From a bacterium (GTDB taxonomy: Bacteria > SZUA-79 > Acidulodesulfobacterales > Acidulodesulfobacteraceae): a DNA stretch of 64,000 nt. The stretch lies in contig QIJE01000029.1 of assembly GCA_003232385.1 (NCBI GenBank), positions 1-64,000 of the forward strand, written 5' to 3'. Positions 3,643 through 54,425 of this stretch are shown one piece after another. Both the position numbers and the translations under genes were made by a program. Position 1 is the stretch's first letter; the number at the start of each line of letters is the position of its first letter. The notes beneath the pieces were generated by a model that saw nothing but the letters and a program-made list of their open reading frames with translations, made no database searches and was not told where the DNA came from.

Positions 3643-3656
3643 GGTATAATGATCAT

Positions 3657-3766
3657 AATCAGGGGTGCCGCTATTAGTTTGGCTGAGAGTCGAGTCGTGA
3701 ATTGTTTCCGGCTTGCAACCCTTTGAACCTGATACGGGTAATGCCGGCGTAGGGAGGTAAGAAATT
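3657..3766 (+). promoter_or_regulatory. TPP (THI element) riboswitch
   Basis: aggggtgccg...ggctgaga...aacCCTTTGAACCTGATacgggtaatgccggcgtagggagg: all conserved TPP riboswitch blocks (GGGGUGCC, GGCUGAGA, ACCCUUUGAACCUGAU, GUAAUGCCGGCGUAGGGA). Confidence 0.95.
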
Positions 3767-3930
3767 GTTAAGAACCGACAGGGCATGTTTTTATCGTGCA
3801 TAAACCGTTGTTAGAATTAGGTTCGTGGGTCTTCTTTCCTTTTTAGTTTGCCGCAAAACCTCTGTAAGAGTATCTTGATTATTTTTTAAAAAACATAACG
3901 CTGCCGTTATAATTATAACGGCATAATAAT

Positions 3931-30892: not shown

Positions 30893-30987
30893 GGAAGCGG
30901 ATAGACGGCTGGTGCCTCTCTTTGACTTCAAATCAACAGTCGCTCCTACAAAGGGTGAGGTGGGTTCGATTCCCATACGCTTCCGCC
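30893..30987 (+). tRNA. selC: tRNA-Sec candidate (anticodon UCA)
   Basis: GGAAGCGGATAGACGGCTGGTGCCTCTCTTTGACTTCAAATCAACAGTCGCTCCTACAAAGGGTGAGGTGGGTTCGATTCCCATACGCTTCCGCC: selC-type anticodon arm GACTTCAAATC, long D arm and variable arm, GGAAG/CTTCC acceptor, G discriminator; CCA not fully encoded (GCCG). Confidence 0.8.
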
Positions 30988-49170: not shown

Positions 49171-50241
49171 TTAATCATAATCTAACAGCTCCTTTCTTAT
49201 CCTTGCCACGTCGTTCGCATTTAACGCAAACGGAAAACTCCTTATATTCTTGGGCGAAGAATCGCCGAACGGTCTGTTACATGCCGAAATTTCGGTTTTT
49301 CCGGGACAGCCGGTAGTCTGAAAAGCGACGCCCTTTTCTATCATTTCGGCAACGGTTTTAAAAGGCATGCCGAAATCTATAATCCTCTCTTCATCGTCGA
49401 AAATCATATCCTCGACCCTGCCCATATCATAATCTATTATATGTCTTGCCGTCTGAACGCGTCTATATTTACCCGCCGGACATTGAGGATGATTTTCCAA
49501 TCTCGACCCCTTTTCCCGATAAAAAGAAAAGAGATGCGACCTTGCCCCGATATCTCTAACCGCCTGTATTCTGCGTACCATCTCCATTTCCGTTTCTCCT
49601 AAGCCGACGACTAAATGGCAACCAACCCTATTTTTTCCGAAAACCGAAACGGAATATTCTAATATATCGTTATATTTTTCCCATCTATGGGGTCCGTTAA
49701 CACCCTTCCCTCTATATTTGTCGAACAATTCCGGCGTTGCGACATCTAAGGCTACCGTTACCATATTCGCGCCACATTCTTTAAAGCTATCTATATCTTG
49801 ATGTTTTAAAACGGTAGGGGCCATTAATATAGAAACCGGACAGTGTAGTTCGCCGACGAACCTTTTTAAAATCGTAAAGGTATCTTTCTTTGCTTTTTCA
49901 TGAGTTATCATGGATATACAAATTCTATCCGCTATATCTTTTTTTTTGAGCGTCGATTCTATTACATCGTCCGTTTTGAATACGGGCCAGTCTACTCTTA
50001 TAAAACTTTTATCGTTGTAATCCCCTTCTCTCGTTTTTTGAAGACCGCAATAAGCACAATTTGCCTTACATCCCTCGTCGTATGTAAGAAGCACGTTTAT
50101 ACAATGAAGACAGGCATTACGATAAAAAATACCGGGGACGAGGTCCATTGTCATTGCAGCAGCTAGGCTTACCTTAAGGTAATCTGGAGAACTCTCCTCG
50201 CATACGTCGTTTTCTATCTCTGCCGCTATATTTTTATTCAT
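49171..50241 (-). CDS. lipS1: LipS1-like radical SAM lipoate synthase subunit
   Basis: YDEGCKANCAYCGLQKTRE radical SAM motif; MTHEKAKKDTFTILKRF; clustered with lipoate ligase, LipS2-like and LbpA-like genes. Confidence 0.78.
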   Translation of the reverse strand: MNKNIAAEIENDVCEESSPDYLKVSLAAAMTMDLVPGIFYRNACLHCINVLLTYDEGCKANCAYCGLQKTREGDYNDKSFIRVDWPVFKTDDVIESTLKKKDIADRICISMITHEKAKKDTFTILKRFVGELHCPVSILMAPTVLKHQDIDSFKECGANMVTVALDVATPELFDKYRGKGVNGPHRWEKYNDILEYSVSVFGKNRVGCHLVVGLGETEMEMVRRIQAVRDIGARSHLFSFYREKGSRLENHPQCPAGKYRRVQTARHIIDYDMGRVEDMIFDDEERIIDFGMPFKTVAEMIEKGVAFQTTGCPGKTEISACNRPFGDSSPKNIRSFPFALNANDVARIRKELLDYD

Positions 50242-50270
50242 AATTTTTTAATTCCTCCGGTAAATTATCC

Positions 50271-51839
50271 TTACGAATCGACTGTGTGACAATCAGGTAC
50301 TTGGCTAAACATCTTAAATAACACTCCTGTCCCAAGAGAGGTCTCTCCGTTAAAAACACCTTCGTAAGCACCTTTCTCTTTATGTAATAAATAGCATAAC
50401 GGAGACGATATATCGATTAAGAGTGCTTTTATGCCGCTTTTTCTAAATGCATCATTCCTTTTTACGTAAAACTCTTTGCAGCAAAACCCTATATATGATT
50501 TAATTTTTTCGGCTTTAAGCCTATTCAATGTTTCTACAAGATTTTCATAATTTATTATTGTTTTCGGTTTGATGTTATACCGTTCGGCAAATTTATATGC
50601 CGTACCGGTCTCGCAATCACCGCACGATATACATTTATCTTCGTTTCTATATTCACATTTTGCTTTTTTAGCACAATACGGTAAGAGAAGAAATTCAGCG
50701 GATGAAATGTCTTCGGGTCTCATTCCGTTTATAAAGATAAATCTTGATAGGTCTTCCTCGGTAATACCGGTATTTTTGGAAAAATTAACCTTGTTTATTA
50801 TCTGAACGGCTATATTAAAGAAATCGTTTTTGCCGATATTTTGAAACTCAGGGTTAAATTTTTTGAAGTAATCGTCTATTTTGAAAATCAATTCATCTAA
50901 CGTCGTATCCTTCAGATAGCTTTCCAAATCTGCAATCGTCCTGGTTGGAGAAACAAAATAATCACCGGTAAAATAAATTTGCTTTAAAAGGTTTCTCTTT
51001 TGGTCGACTCTCGTATAAGTCTTAAATAATCCGCCATCGCATTTATATATTTCAGAAATCATTTTCGTTTCCGCAGGATCGAATTCATTTAAATAAACCC
51101 AATCTTCAGCCGCAAAATCGGCTCTATTTTCTTTTAAAAAATCTTCTTCTTTCGTCGACAGTCCGGATTTATAAAAATCAATGCCGAAATATTCCTCGAA
51201 TCCGGAAAGAATGCTTGACTTTATATATTCCAACTCGGGTATGCAGCCGATAACGTTCTTAACGGAAGTTACCCTTGAAAGAATAGAATCGAAATTTTTG
51301 GACGTCAATTTTTCAACCGGAATTCTTAACGATTTAACCATATATTCGGGATTAAAATCTAAGAGCAACGTTCCTTGAAAAAAATAAATCGAAGACTCAT
51401 AAGTGCCTCCGGTGCCGGAAATTTTGCGCCCATCGACCTCTATGTCGTTTCTCGGCCTAAATTTAGCATTAATACCAAGTTTATTAATTCCCTTTACAAA
51501 AGCGCCGCAAATATTCTCGGTAAGTTTTTCAAGGCTGTTTATATTTAGTCCGATGCCTTTGGAAGAAAATACAATCTCCCATCCAAGCTGCATCTCGTCG
51601 CAATAAAGCGCCCCGCCCCCGGTTATTCTCCTCCCTATTCCTATGCCGTTATCCTTGCAGTAATCCTGTCTTATCTCGCTGAATACAGATTGATGATACC
51701 CCACTAAGGCACACGGTTTAAATCTTAAAAAACGAAAAGTATCCCCTATTAATCCCTCCTTTCTAAGATCGACAAGGGATCTATCCATGCATATATTAAA
51801 TGAAAAATCTTGTAAACCCGTGTCTATTACCCTAAACAT
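50271..51839 (-). CDS. Lipoate-protein ligase (LplA-like) fused to a Cys-rich DUF116-like domain
   Basis: N-terminal GRRITGGGALYCDEMQLGWEIVF, RPRNDIEVDGRKISGTGGTYESSIYFFQGTLLLDFN (LplA signature); C-terminal LLLPYCAKKAKCEYRNEDKCISCGDCETGTAYKFAE...GFCCKEF (DUF116-like). Confidence 0.85.
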   Translation of the reverse strand: MFRVIDTGLQDFSFNICMDRSLVDLRKEGLIGDTFRFLRFKPCALVGYHQSVFSEIRQDYCKDNGIGIGRRITGGGALYCDEMQLGWEIVFSSKGIGLNINSLEKLTENICGAFVKGINKLGINAKFRPRNDIEVDGRKISGTGGTYESSIYFFQGTLLLDFNPEYMVKSLRIPVEKLTSKNFDSILSRVTSVKNVIGCIPELEYIKSSILSGFEEYFGIDFYKSGLSTKEEDFLKENRADFAAEDWVYLNEFDPAETKMISEIYKCDGGLFKTYTRVDQKRNLLKQIYFTGDYFVSPTRTIADLESYLKDTTLDELIFKIDDYFKKFNPEFQNIGKNDFFNIAVQIINKVNFSKNTGITEEDLSRFIFINGMRPEDISSAEFLLLPYCAKKAKCEYRNEDKCISCGDCETGTAYKFAERYNIKPKTIINYENLVETLNRLKAEKIKSYIGFCCKEFYVKRNDAFRKSGIKALLIDISSPLCYLLHKEKGAYEGVFNGETSLGTGVLFKMFSQVPDCHTVDS

Positions 51840-51860
51840 CTTCTATTATCCATAATCCGA

Positions 51861-52862
51861 TTAACCTCCAAGCGTTATGGCAGGCAATACAGTCTCTGAA
51901 AAAATTAAGGAACAGCAAACTTCGGAAAATTTTGGCTTTAACCCCAATTCGATACTGAAGGGTATAATCCCTTCCGAAGGGTACGCTATGCCGTTTAATC
52001 CGGACTTTACCGCCAATTCTTCTATCTTAAATTTGTCTAATCCGTAAGGTCTTTCGCAACCTAAGAGAACCGGGGTATCCGTAAATTTTTTTCTAGCATA
52101 TAAAAACACATCGCCTATTTCCGAGGGGGTAGGTGGAGCAATATTTTCCATTTTGGTATTATGCATCGGCATAAAGCCTACCAGCACTAAAGAGGAAATA
52201 TTATATCCGGAAATAATATCTATGGCGTTATATTCTCCGACTATATGCCCGTGTTTTAACCCTATTACAACATGAGGAGAACACGGTATTCCCCTTTCCG
52301 ATAAAAACTTCAGGGAATTCTCGTAATCCTTAACCGTAGCATTGAGATGATATATTTTTCGAATGGTGTCTTCGTCGCCTATAATGTCAAGCATTGCCGA
52401 ATCTACACCGGAGTCGTAAAGGCCGTCTGCTATTGCCTCTGTAATAAGCCCGCAATGAACTATAACCTTAAGGCCAAAATCGGCTTTTATTTTTCTTATT
52501 ACGCCTATATAGGGAAGAATATCTACTATACCCGCACTGTCCGAGCCGCCGCTTAACAAAAATCCCGTACCGCCGGATTCATGTATCGTTTTGGCCTTAT
52601 CGTAAAGTTCGTCCTGCGTGAGCACGGAAACCATAGATTTAAGTATTTCCGCGTTGCAGTGTTCGCATTTTAAAGAGCACGAACTACCCGTTATGGAAAA
52701 AGGAGGAAAAGAATCGGCCTTACTGTTTTTAAAATCCTCCGTTTCATAAGATTTTATGCTTGGGGCATAAAAATGTATTTCGGAATCAAAGCATTCTTTT
52801 CTTATATTGAATCCTTCTAAATACTCCTTGCTTATATCCTCGTTGTATTCATAAAAACTCAT
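51861..52862 (-). CDS. lipS2: LipS2-like radical SAM lipoate synthase subunit
   Basis: FPPFSITGSSCSLKCEHCNAEILKSM, GTGFLLSGGSDSAG, VGFMPMHNTKM. Confidence 0.78.
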   Translation of the reverse strand: MSFYEYNEDISKEYLEGFNIRKECFDSEIHFYAPSIKSYETEDFKNSKADSFPPFSITGSSCSLKCEHCNAEILKSMVSVLTQDELYDKAKTIHESGGTGFLLSGGSDSAGIVDILPYIGVIRKIKADFGLKVIVHCGLITEAIADGLYDSGVDSAMLDIIGDEDTIRKIYHLNATVKDYENSLKFLSERGIPCSPHVVIGLKHGHIVGEYNAIDIISGYNISSLVLVGFMPMHNTKMENIAPPTPSEIGDVFLYARKKFTDTPVLLGCERPYGLDKFKIEELAVKSGLNGIAYPSEGIIPFSIELGLKPKFSEVCCSLIFSETVLPAITLGG

Positions 52863-52864
52863 AG

Positions 52865-53311
52865 TTATCTCTTTTTACAAATTATATCTTCTTCCTCAAG
52901 TTTTTTTGTATATGCGCTAACAGCCTCTTTGCCGGTTATGAGAGAATTTATATCCGAGATAGATTCCTGAAGAGGTCTTAATTTTACTATCCATCCCTTG
53001 CCGTATGGGTCTAAATTAATAATATGCGAATCTTTTTCCAATTCCTCGTTTACCTCTATTATCTCACCTGCAAAAGGCACGAGAAACGGACCTACGTATT
53101 TGCCGCTTTCTATAGTAGCGGCACTTTTACCCTTTTTAATAACTCTGCCTACGGCTTTAACCTCTGCATAAATAATTTTTCCGGCTAAAGATTGAGCGGG
53201 GTCGGTCATACCTACGGTAACGGTTCCGTCGTCGTTTTTTCTACCCCAAACATGATTTTCTATATCGTAATACAAAACTTCCGGAATATCGCATTTATTA
53301 AAAATAGCCAT
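52865..53311 (-). CDS. lbpA: LbpA-type lipoate-binding protein (GcvH-like), paralog 1
   Basis: DGTVTVGMTDPAQSLAGKIIY, AATIESGKYVGPFLVPFAGEIIEVN, NLDPYGKGWIVKL. Confidence 0.82.
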   Translation of the reverse strand: MAIFNKCDIPEVLYYDIENHVWGRKNDDGTVTVGMTDPAQSLAGKIIYAEVKAVGRVIKKGKSAATIESGKYVGPFLVPFAGEIIEVNEELEKDSHIINLDPYGKGWIVKLRPLQESISDINSLITGKEAVSAYTKKLEEEDIICKKR

Positions 53312-53346
53312 TATATGCCTCCCGATCCAATCTCATATTTAAAGAA

Positions 53347-53811
53347 TTATTCACATTTAATTCCATCGGCTTCTATCTTTTTTTTATAGGCTTCTACCGC
53401 TTCTTTTCCGATGAGAAGGTTTTTCTTATCCTCTTCGATATTATCGGCCTTAATTTTACAAACCCAGCCTTTTCCGTAAGGATCTGAATTTATAATGGAA
53501 ACATTTTTAACGACTTCATCGTTCACTGCGACTATTTCTCCGGAAAATAGAGCCGGCACGGGACCTACGTATTTGCCGCTTTCTACCGTCGCTACGGACT
53601 TTAACTGTGCGATTTTACGTCCAACCTTTTTCGGAGTAATATATAAAAGCTTACCGGCTAAACTCTGAGCAACGCTAGTCATACCTACGGTAACGGTTCC
53701 GTCGTCTTCAAGTTTTCCCCACACATGTTTTTCTACGCTGTAATAGAGATCTTCCGGAATATCGCATCCATTAACTTTAGACATAATAAATTCCCCCCCT
53801 TGCTTAATCAT
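53347..53811 (-). CDS. lbpA: LbpA-type lipoate-binding protein (GcvH-like), paralog 2
   Basis: DGTVTVGMTSVAQSLAGKLLYI, ATVESGKYVGPVPALFSGEIVAVN, NSDPYGKGWVCKI. Confidence 0.83.
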   Translation of the reverse strand: MIKQGGEFIMSKVNGCDIPEDLYYSVEKHVWGKLEDDGTVTVGMTSVAQSLAGKLLYITPKKVGRKIAQLKSVATVESGKYVGPVPALFSGEIVAVNDEVVKNVSIINSDPYGKGWVCKIKADNIEEDKKNLLIGKEAVEAYKKKIEADGIKCE

Positions 53812-53941
53812 TTAATTAACTTTTGTTCCAATAATATTTATAACTTCCCGCTATCCTCAGGTATGTCAAACTCGGACACGATTTGCCTGCATCAGCACAA
53901 AAATGTCTTCTTTGCACAAGCATCATCGTTTTAGGCATTCT

Positions 53942-54340
53942 CTACTTGCAATTTTGCGACAATACTAAATCGACATTATTATTAGATTTGCAAAAGCCGT
54001 CGTCGAATAATTTCAAGTCGTTGAACTCTCCGGCATCTTTTATTTCCTTAATGTCCTTAATAAGATGCCTCATTTTAGGATTTGCCAGATAGTATAGAAG
54101 TTTATTGCCGACTCTCTTGCAGTCTACCATTCGAGTGTTTCTTAAAACGGCTAAATGCTGGGAAATATTGGATTGAGTTTTATTGAGGGCGGAAGATATA
54201 TCGTTTACGCTAACCTCTTCGTCTTCAACTATACATAGAATTCCAAGCCTTATAGGATTAGATAAAAGCTTAAAAATATAAGCCAATTCTTTACATTTTC
54301 TGTTCAGACTATCGTCGCCGATACACAATTTCTTTCCCAT
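53942..54340 (-). CDS. ArsR/SmtB family transcriptional regulator, possible sulfane-sulfur sensor
   Basis: LLSNPIRLGILCIVEDEEVSVNDISSALNKTQSNISQHLAVLRNTRMVDCKRVGNKLLYYLANPKM; Cys36 in the ILC context, further Cys at 74, 117 and 131. Confidence 0.88.
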   Translation of the reverse strand: MGKKLCIGDDSLNRKCKELAYIFKLLSNPIRLGILCIVEDEEVSVNDISSALNKTQSNISQHLAVLRNTRMVDCKRVGNKLLYYLANPKMRHLIKDIKEIKDAGEFNDLKLFDDGFCKSNNNVDLVLSQNCK

Positions 54341-54380: not shown

Positions 54381-54425
54381 GTATATTCTGAGTGTAGAAT
54401 ATACCAATTCTGATACGATTGTCAA
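54381..54425 (-). promoter_or_regulatory. Promoter plus operator of arsR / lipoate module
   Basis: Minus strand TTGACA (54420-54425), 16-bp spacer, TATATT (54398-54403); the -10 lies inside the 9-bp-arm dyad gtatattct-gagtgt-agaatatac (54381-54404), which contains ATTC-N8-GAAT. Confidence 0.75.

Follow-up and report, generated by a model that had tools for sequence, protein, structure and literature searches.

The closest described counterpart of the locus considered here is the sLpl(AB)-LipS1/S2 system of the sulfur oxidisers Thioalkalivibrio, Thiorhodospira and Hyphomicrobium, which comprises the radical SAM lipoyl synthase subunits LipS1 and LipS2, a ligase with LplA and LplB domains and the two-cysteine lipoyl carrier LbpA, in genomes that also encode a sulfur-oxidising heterodisulfide reductase-like (sHdr) complex (PMC6067878, PMC10332631). 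The two cysteines, one near each end of the protein, are the most conspicuous feature of LbpA and are missing in GcvH (PMC6067878). LipT has been proposed as electron donor, and is present in only about half of the bacteria that have LipS1/S2 (PMC10332631). Counterparts of LipS1, LipS2, the ligase and LbpA are found together in a gene block at positions 49,171 to 54,340 of a 64,000-nucleotide stretch of DNA (the window; contig QIJE01000029.1 of assembly GCA_003232385.1) from a bacterium of the Acidulodesulfobacteraceae. Compared with the systems of the sulfur oxidisers, the ligase carries an additional C-terminal DUF116 arm, the cluster has no lipT, two lbpA genes are adjacent while a third is found elsewhere, sHdr is not linked to the module, and dsrAB is present in the genome as well. 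The window corresponds to contig C10 of a genome that comprises 1.54 Mb in 40 contigs and has a completeness rating of 95%. Relatives of this genome include Candidatus Acididesulfobacter, placed in Candidatus Acidulodesulfobacteriota, a phylum of acid-mine bacteria.

A candidate pathway for the maturation of LbpA

The block very probably encodes an sLpl(AB)-LipS1/S2 route for the maturation of LbpA with sHdr as the client, where both the chemistry and the partnership of LbpA with sHdr are predicted by analogy with characterised homologues. The initial annotation had placed six tightly packed genes on the minus strand here and had proposed an alternative lipoate pathway tied to sHdr; all six genes are present, and the proposal agrees with the matched component families, with the cysteines of the carriers and with the sHdr genes found on contig C23. 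In minus-strand order the genes are arsR, lbpA, lbpA, lipS1, ligase and lipS2, with gaps of 2 to 35 bp among the five lip genes (Table 1), and the Pfam and NCBIfam models identify two radical SAM proteins, an LplA-B_cat protein with DUF116, two GCV_H proteins and one ArsR/SmtB regulator. Since the identical gene order recurs throughout the phylum, the block is far beyond chance. Both families of the expected LipS1/LipS2 pair are represented, but the two names had been interchanged: according to NCBIfam, LipS1 is encoded between the second lbpA and the ligase gene, and LipS2 by the last gene of the block. LipS1 reaches 222.5 bits with NF053742, for which the curated equivalog cut-off is 230, and LipS2 208.8 bits with NF053743 (equivalog cut-off 270), while the next-best families for the two radical SAM proteins reach merely 26 and 60 bits. 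LipS1 was found in 27 of the 30 genomes of the phylum, its orthologues lying on both sides of the NF053742 cut-off, most of them under it. No relative of LipS1 was present in the plasmid collection, and no solved structure similar to it by sequence was found.

The carriers had been taken for LbpA rather than classical GcvH, and this is borne out by the two-cysteine signature and by the tree. Every LbpA sequence compared has an N-terminal and a C-terminal cysteine, whereas the two GcvH proteins of the source genome have none, and a 100/98 branch divides all LbpAs from GcvH in a tree with few outgroups and two long branches. Within the LbpA part of the tree three sets are seen, one for each of the linked carriers and one for a third type. 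The latter, encoded on contig C19 (L019:9859-10308) and present in 25 of the 30 phylum genomes, has three cysteines (C7, C143 and C146), and its gene adjoins a thioredoxin-like gene, with hemerythrin-like and DUF2249/TusA-like genes nearby. It is highly improbable that the carriers are instead ordinary GcvH duplicates and the module a general backup for lipoylation. Each carrier is accepted by the GcvH subfamily model PRK01202, and gcvT and gcvP exist, but the carriers stay under the TIGR00527 gcvH cut-off that the GcvH of contig C16 passes, and LipA and another acyltransferase are already available; the idea was rejected on the grounds that the two cysteines are foreign to GcvH and that the carriers separate from it in the tree. 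Similarly, the combination that the initial annotation had named as counter-evidence, namely gcvP and gcvT without sHdr genes and with carriers nested inside GcvH, is found in its first part only: gcvP and gcvT are present, but so is sHdr, and the carriers fall outside GcvH.

Related clusters from other phyla, with the order carrier-Lpl-LipS2-LipS1 (L175:4230-8182 and L177:3743-7127), likewise have a GcvH-like carrier, a ligase, LipS2 (46-48% identical) and an adjacent LipS1. By contrast, their ligase is a 352-residue protein without DUF116, and their carrier is without the two LbpA cysteines and lies nearer to GcvH in the tree. This carrier reads IQTRKWIG at the lysine and has one internal cysteine, which is untypical of both LbpA and GcvH.

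The source genome has further means of lipoylation. By sequence inspection, gcvT-gcvH-gcvP lies on contig C13, LipA is present, and a second LplA-B_cat protein of 268 residues with a single domain, a LipM or ligase subtype, is encoded directly after the GcvH gene on contig C16 (L018:10578-11816). Because gcvT, gcvH and gcvP as well as LipA are present, the module looks dedicated and additional to the LipA route, rather than the cell's only one. In the proposed pathway, the ligase domain would activate octanoate or lipoate with ATP and attach it to the lysine within ESGKYVGP of the two LbpAs, after which LipS2 and then LipS1 would insert two sulfur atoms (PMC10332631). Lipoyl synthases of the LipS1/LipS2 kind are defined by sulfur insertion at C8 and C6 of octanoyl-lysine. 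Holo-LbpA would act together with sHdr, the sulfur-oxidising complex whose genes lie elsewhere in the genome, the DUF116 arm may fill the LipT gap or dock the synthase, and the separate LipA system together with the single-domain acyltransferase would be available for GcvH.

The presumed sHdr partner

The module had been described as physically separated from its presumed partner, and indeed the one sHdr cluster of the genome is on a different contig, C23 (L020:1601-7201), in the order C1-B1-A-hyp-C2-B2. Its HdrA is short (347 residues), and the best solved match is 6tjr_A, which aligns over the full length with 274 bits, compared with 192 bits for methanogen HdrA; 6tjr is presumably the sHdrA of Hyphomicrobium. 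Full-length sHdr of the C23 type is present in 26 of the 30 phylum genomes. Relatives hold a second sHdr-like cluster, C1-B1-A-C2-B2, which is without the hyp gene and the B1 of which is about 46-48% identical to that of the C23 type, while its HdrA matches methanogen HdrA (257 bits) and 6tjr (249 bits) about equally. This second cluster (L062:170-4842, with equivalents in L064, L067, L074, L075 and L078) is patchy across the phylum and is located directly upstream of lbpA-lbpA-lipS1-slpl-lipS2; in 10 genomes, B1 and lipS1 share a contig and are separated by 4.8-5.6 kb. The second cluster is absent from the source genome, where arsR, a crotonase gene and an RND pump occupy the corresponding position instead, and from 11 others that retain LipS1 and the lipoate module. 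All 12 of these genomes keep sHdr of the C23 type; in two further genomes that look like exceptions, G010 and G018, only parts are present: contig L069 of G010 holds the terminal portion of the linked cluster, and in G018 both sHdr types occur as fragments at contig edges. Because relatives hold an sHdr cluster directly upstream of the module, the separation of the two looks lineage-specific.

The same distribution bears on the alternative that LbpA has a different client, such as the reductive Dsr pathway or a step in thiol trafficking, and co-occurs with sHdr only incidentally. Genes of the dsrAB-L-EFH type are seen by inspection on contig C1, in agreement with Tan et al. 2019 (PMC6776010), who regard the bacteria as sulfate-reducing, and such a client would fit an organism with dsrL and dsrEFH, as well as the position of the third LbpA near a DUF2249/TusA-like gene and the retention of the lipoate module in 12 genomes without lip-linked sHdr. 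However, the other sHdr cluster is present in 12/12 of the genomes that lack the linked one, and in relatives sHdr is directly adjacent to lbpA, which makes a client other than sHdr improbable.

The ligase and its DUF116 arm

The ligase consists of LplA, LplB and DUF116 domains in this order. It matches PF21948 with 138 bits, whereas the match to the LplB model (residues 264-336) does not reach the cut-off set for that model. Solved structures of LplA and LplB subunits match one after the other along the chain, and no variation is seen in the ligase motifs RRITGGG, RxND and KISGTGG. A search for the DUF116 arm covered 386 genomes, of which 30 belong to the phylum and the others to further parts of the domain. 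It was present in 26 of the 30 (one of them a fragment), and a strong match was obtained in just one other genome, G060, the single representative of its phylum. The plasmid collection contained ordinary ligases only, none of them fused to DUF116. The architecture is conserved and apparently undescribed; a literature search found no paper connecting DUF116 to lipoate.

The arm has eight cysteines that are invariant in the phylum, and all eight are also found in G060. Six of them are common to a stand-alone DUF116/COG1852 protein (PF01976) encoded on contig C14 of the source genome, near a methionyl-tRNA formyltransferase-like gene, while C453 and C482 are confined to the fusions among the sequences compared. 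The stand-alone protein also has the alpha/beta core, but differs in having predicted membrane segments and no ligase. On the contig of G060 (L154:1-3089), the genes are in the order tusB/dsrH-like, tusA-like, ligase-DUF116 and a geranylgeranyl-reductase-type flavoprotein, a possible LipT; LipS1 was not found in this fragmented genome. When this flavoprotein adjoining the fusion, an unverified LipT candidate, was used as a probe, no LipT-like protein was seen near the module in 20 phylum loci, and the best match of the probe in the source genome sits among unrelated biosynthetic genes.

According to a prediction by Makarova et al. 2015 (PMC5898192), DUF116 is a flavodoxin-like domain that binds metal and transfers electrons, and the structural model of the arm shows an alternating alpha/beta fold at middling confidence. 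Because of the cysteines, the placement on the ligase and the published prediction, the arm is most likely, if with little support, a metal or iron-sulfur (Fe-S) module that would hold LipS1/S2 at the acylated carrier or pass electrons to them. The more specific proposal of a new redox or Fe-S module tethered to the ligase is tentative and somewhat doubtful. On newly octanoylated LbpA, such a module would supply LipS1/S2 either with electrons, thereby replacing LipT, or with cluster sulfur, and would combine the ligase and the lipoyl synthase into a single assembly unit. It is quite conceivable, though short of probable, that the arm is structural only and has no redox role, as a domain for zinc binding or docking through which LbpA is recognised and the substrate range of the ligase is narrowed. 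Such a function would be in line with the LbpA specificity of sLpl ligases of sulfur oxidisers (PMC6067878), with the attachment of the arm always to the ligase and never to LipS1/S2, and with the lack of a solved DUF116 relative showing a cluster. Yet no such arm has been described for the characterised sLpl(AB) ligases, which are active on LbpA (PMC6067878, PMC10332631), and the CxxCxxC motif and the other invariant cysteines exceed the needs of one zinc site.

Several observations weigh against the reading of the block as an LbpA-maturation pathway for sHdr with a DUF116 arm that serves LipS1/S2. With sHdr on a separate contig, the partnership in this strain is inferred, and the scores of LipS1 and LipS2 lie slightly under the NCBIfam equivalog cut-offs. 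A geranylgeranyl-reductase-family flavoprotein is encoded elsewhere in the genome, so that an unlinked LipT is possible. Furthermore, the fold search with DUF116 gave no significant match, all hits being weak and Rossmann-like with a best E of 0.019, and the full-length model of the ligase is middling (predicted template-modelling score, pTM, 0.54) and too uncertain to place the DUF116 arm relative to the active site.

Regulation, further features and significance

The loosest member of the block is arsR, which lies 130-157 bp from lbpA and adjoins the module in one of 20 relative loci (L076). The best promoter match of the region (11/12), TTGACA and TATATT at a spacing of 16 nt and with TG, is found upstream of arsR and overlaps a perfect 9-bp inverted repeat at 54381-54404. 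Since the arsR orthologue of L076 has a like arrangement upstream (TTGACA...GGTATATTCTacatttGGAATAT), the repeat is suggested to be a candidate autoregulatory operator. Control of the lip genes by ArsR is uncertain because a terminator-like hairpin, seen by inspection, divides arsR from lbpA in L076. Sensing of sulfane sulfur by ArsR proteins of the sHdrR/SoxR kind involves a conserved cysteine pair, Cys50/Cys116 in H. denitrificans (PMC12423496). The ArsR encoded here has the first of these cysteines (in ILC), but no cysteine was found where the second would be expected, and its orthologue in L076 lacks any past the DNA-binding part. The view of ArsR as a proven sulfane-sulfur sensor was dropped. 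For the first lbpA, the reading frame is open from 53811, but this position was rejected as the start in favour of the ATG at 53784, which follows the ribosome-binding site GGGGGGGAA by 7 nt.

Table 1. Coordinates in the window of the genes and other features of the lipoate-assembly locus
Feature	Position	Strand	Evidence
LipS2-family radical SAM lipoyl synthase subunit, 356 aa	49171..50241	-	NF053743, 208.8 bits, residues 23-332; CKANCAYC motif (C-x3-C-x2-C) in translation
sLpl(AB) lipoate:protein ligase with C-terminal DUF116, 522 aa	50271..51839	-	PF21948, residues 13-214; PF01976, residues 381-470; LplB small-subunit model, residues 264-336
DUF116 core of the ligase	50415..50696	-	PF01976; invariant C389, C395, C403, C406, C409, C453, C454; the eighth, C482, slightly downstream
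LipS1-family radical SAM lipoyl synthase subunit, 333 aa	51861..52862	-	NF053742, 222.5 bits, residues 50-317; CSLKCEHC motif
LbpA, second carrier, 148 aa	52865..53311	-	PF01597, 124 bits; lipoyl lysine in ESGKYVGP; Cys7, Cys145; tree
LbpA, first carrier, 145 aa from ATG 53784	53347..53784	-	PF01597, 126 bits; two LbpA cysteines near the ends; tree; ribosome-binding site
ArsR/SmtB-family regulator, 132 aa	53942..54340	-	PF01022 and NF033788, both above cut-off
arsR promoter and 9-bp inverted repeat, candidate ArsR operator	54381..54425	-	TTGACA, 16 nt, TATATT with TG; repeat GTATATTCT/AGAATATAC

Elsewhere in the window, Rfam models match a selenocysteine tRNA at 30893-30984, so that selenoproteins with in-frame TGA are expected in the genome, and a thiamine pyrophosphate (TPP) riboswitch at 3651-3772.

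While the pathway is known already, no earlier report of it in this lineage was found, and the present comparison places a complete system for LbpA maturation, together with sHdr, in nearly the whole phylum Acidulodesulfobacteriota, which the literature consulted discusses as Dsr-type sulfate reducers or sulfide oxidisers. Among the top transcripts listed by Tan et al. 2019 (PMC6776010) are hdrB2, hdrC2, gcvH and sirA, the first three being assigned there to methane and glyoxylate metabolism; a plausible rereading of these transcripts is that they represent sHdr, LbpA and TusA. The fusion of ligase and DUF116 offers a lead on how LipS1/S2 become reduced or re-supplied, and on the function of DUF116. 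If true, a redox or Fe-S role of the arm would be the first function for a member of the DUF116 family, as far as the literature search showed.

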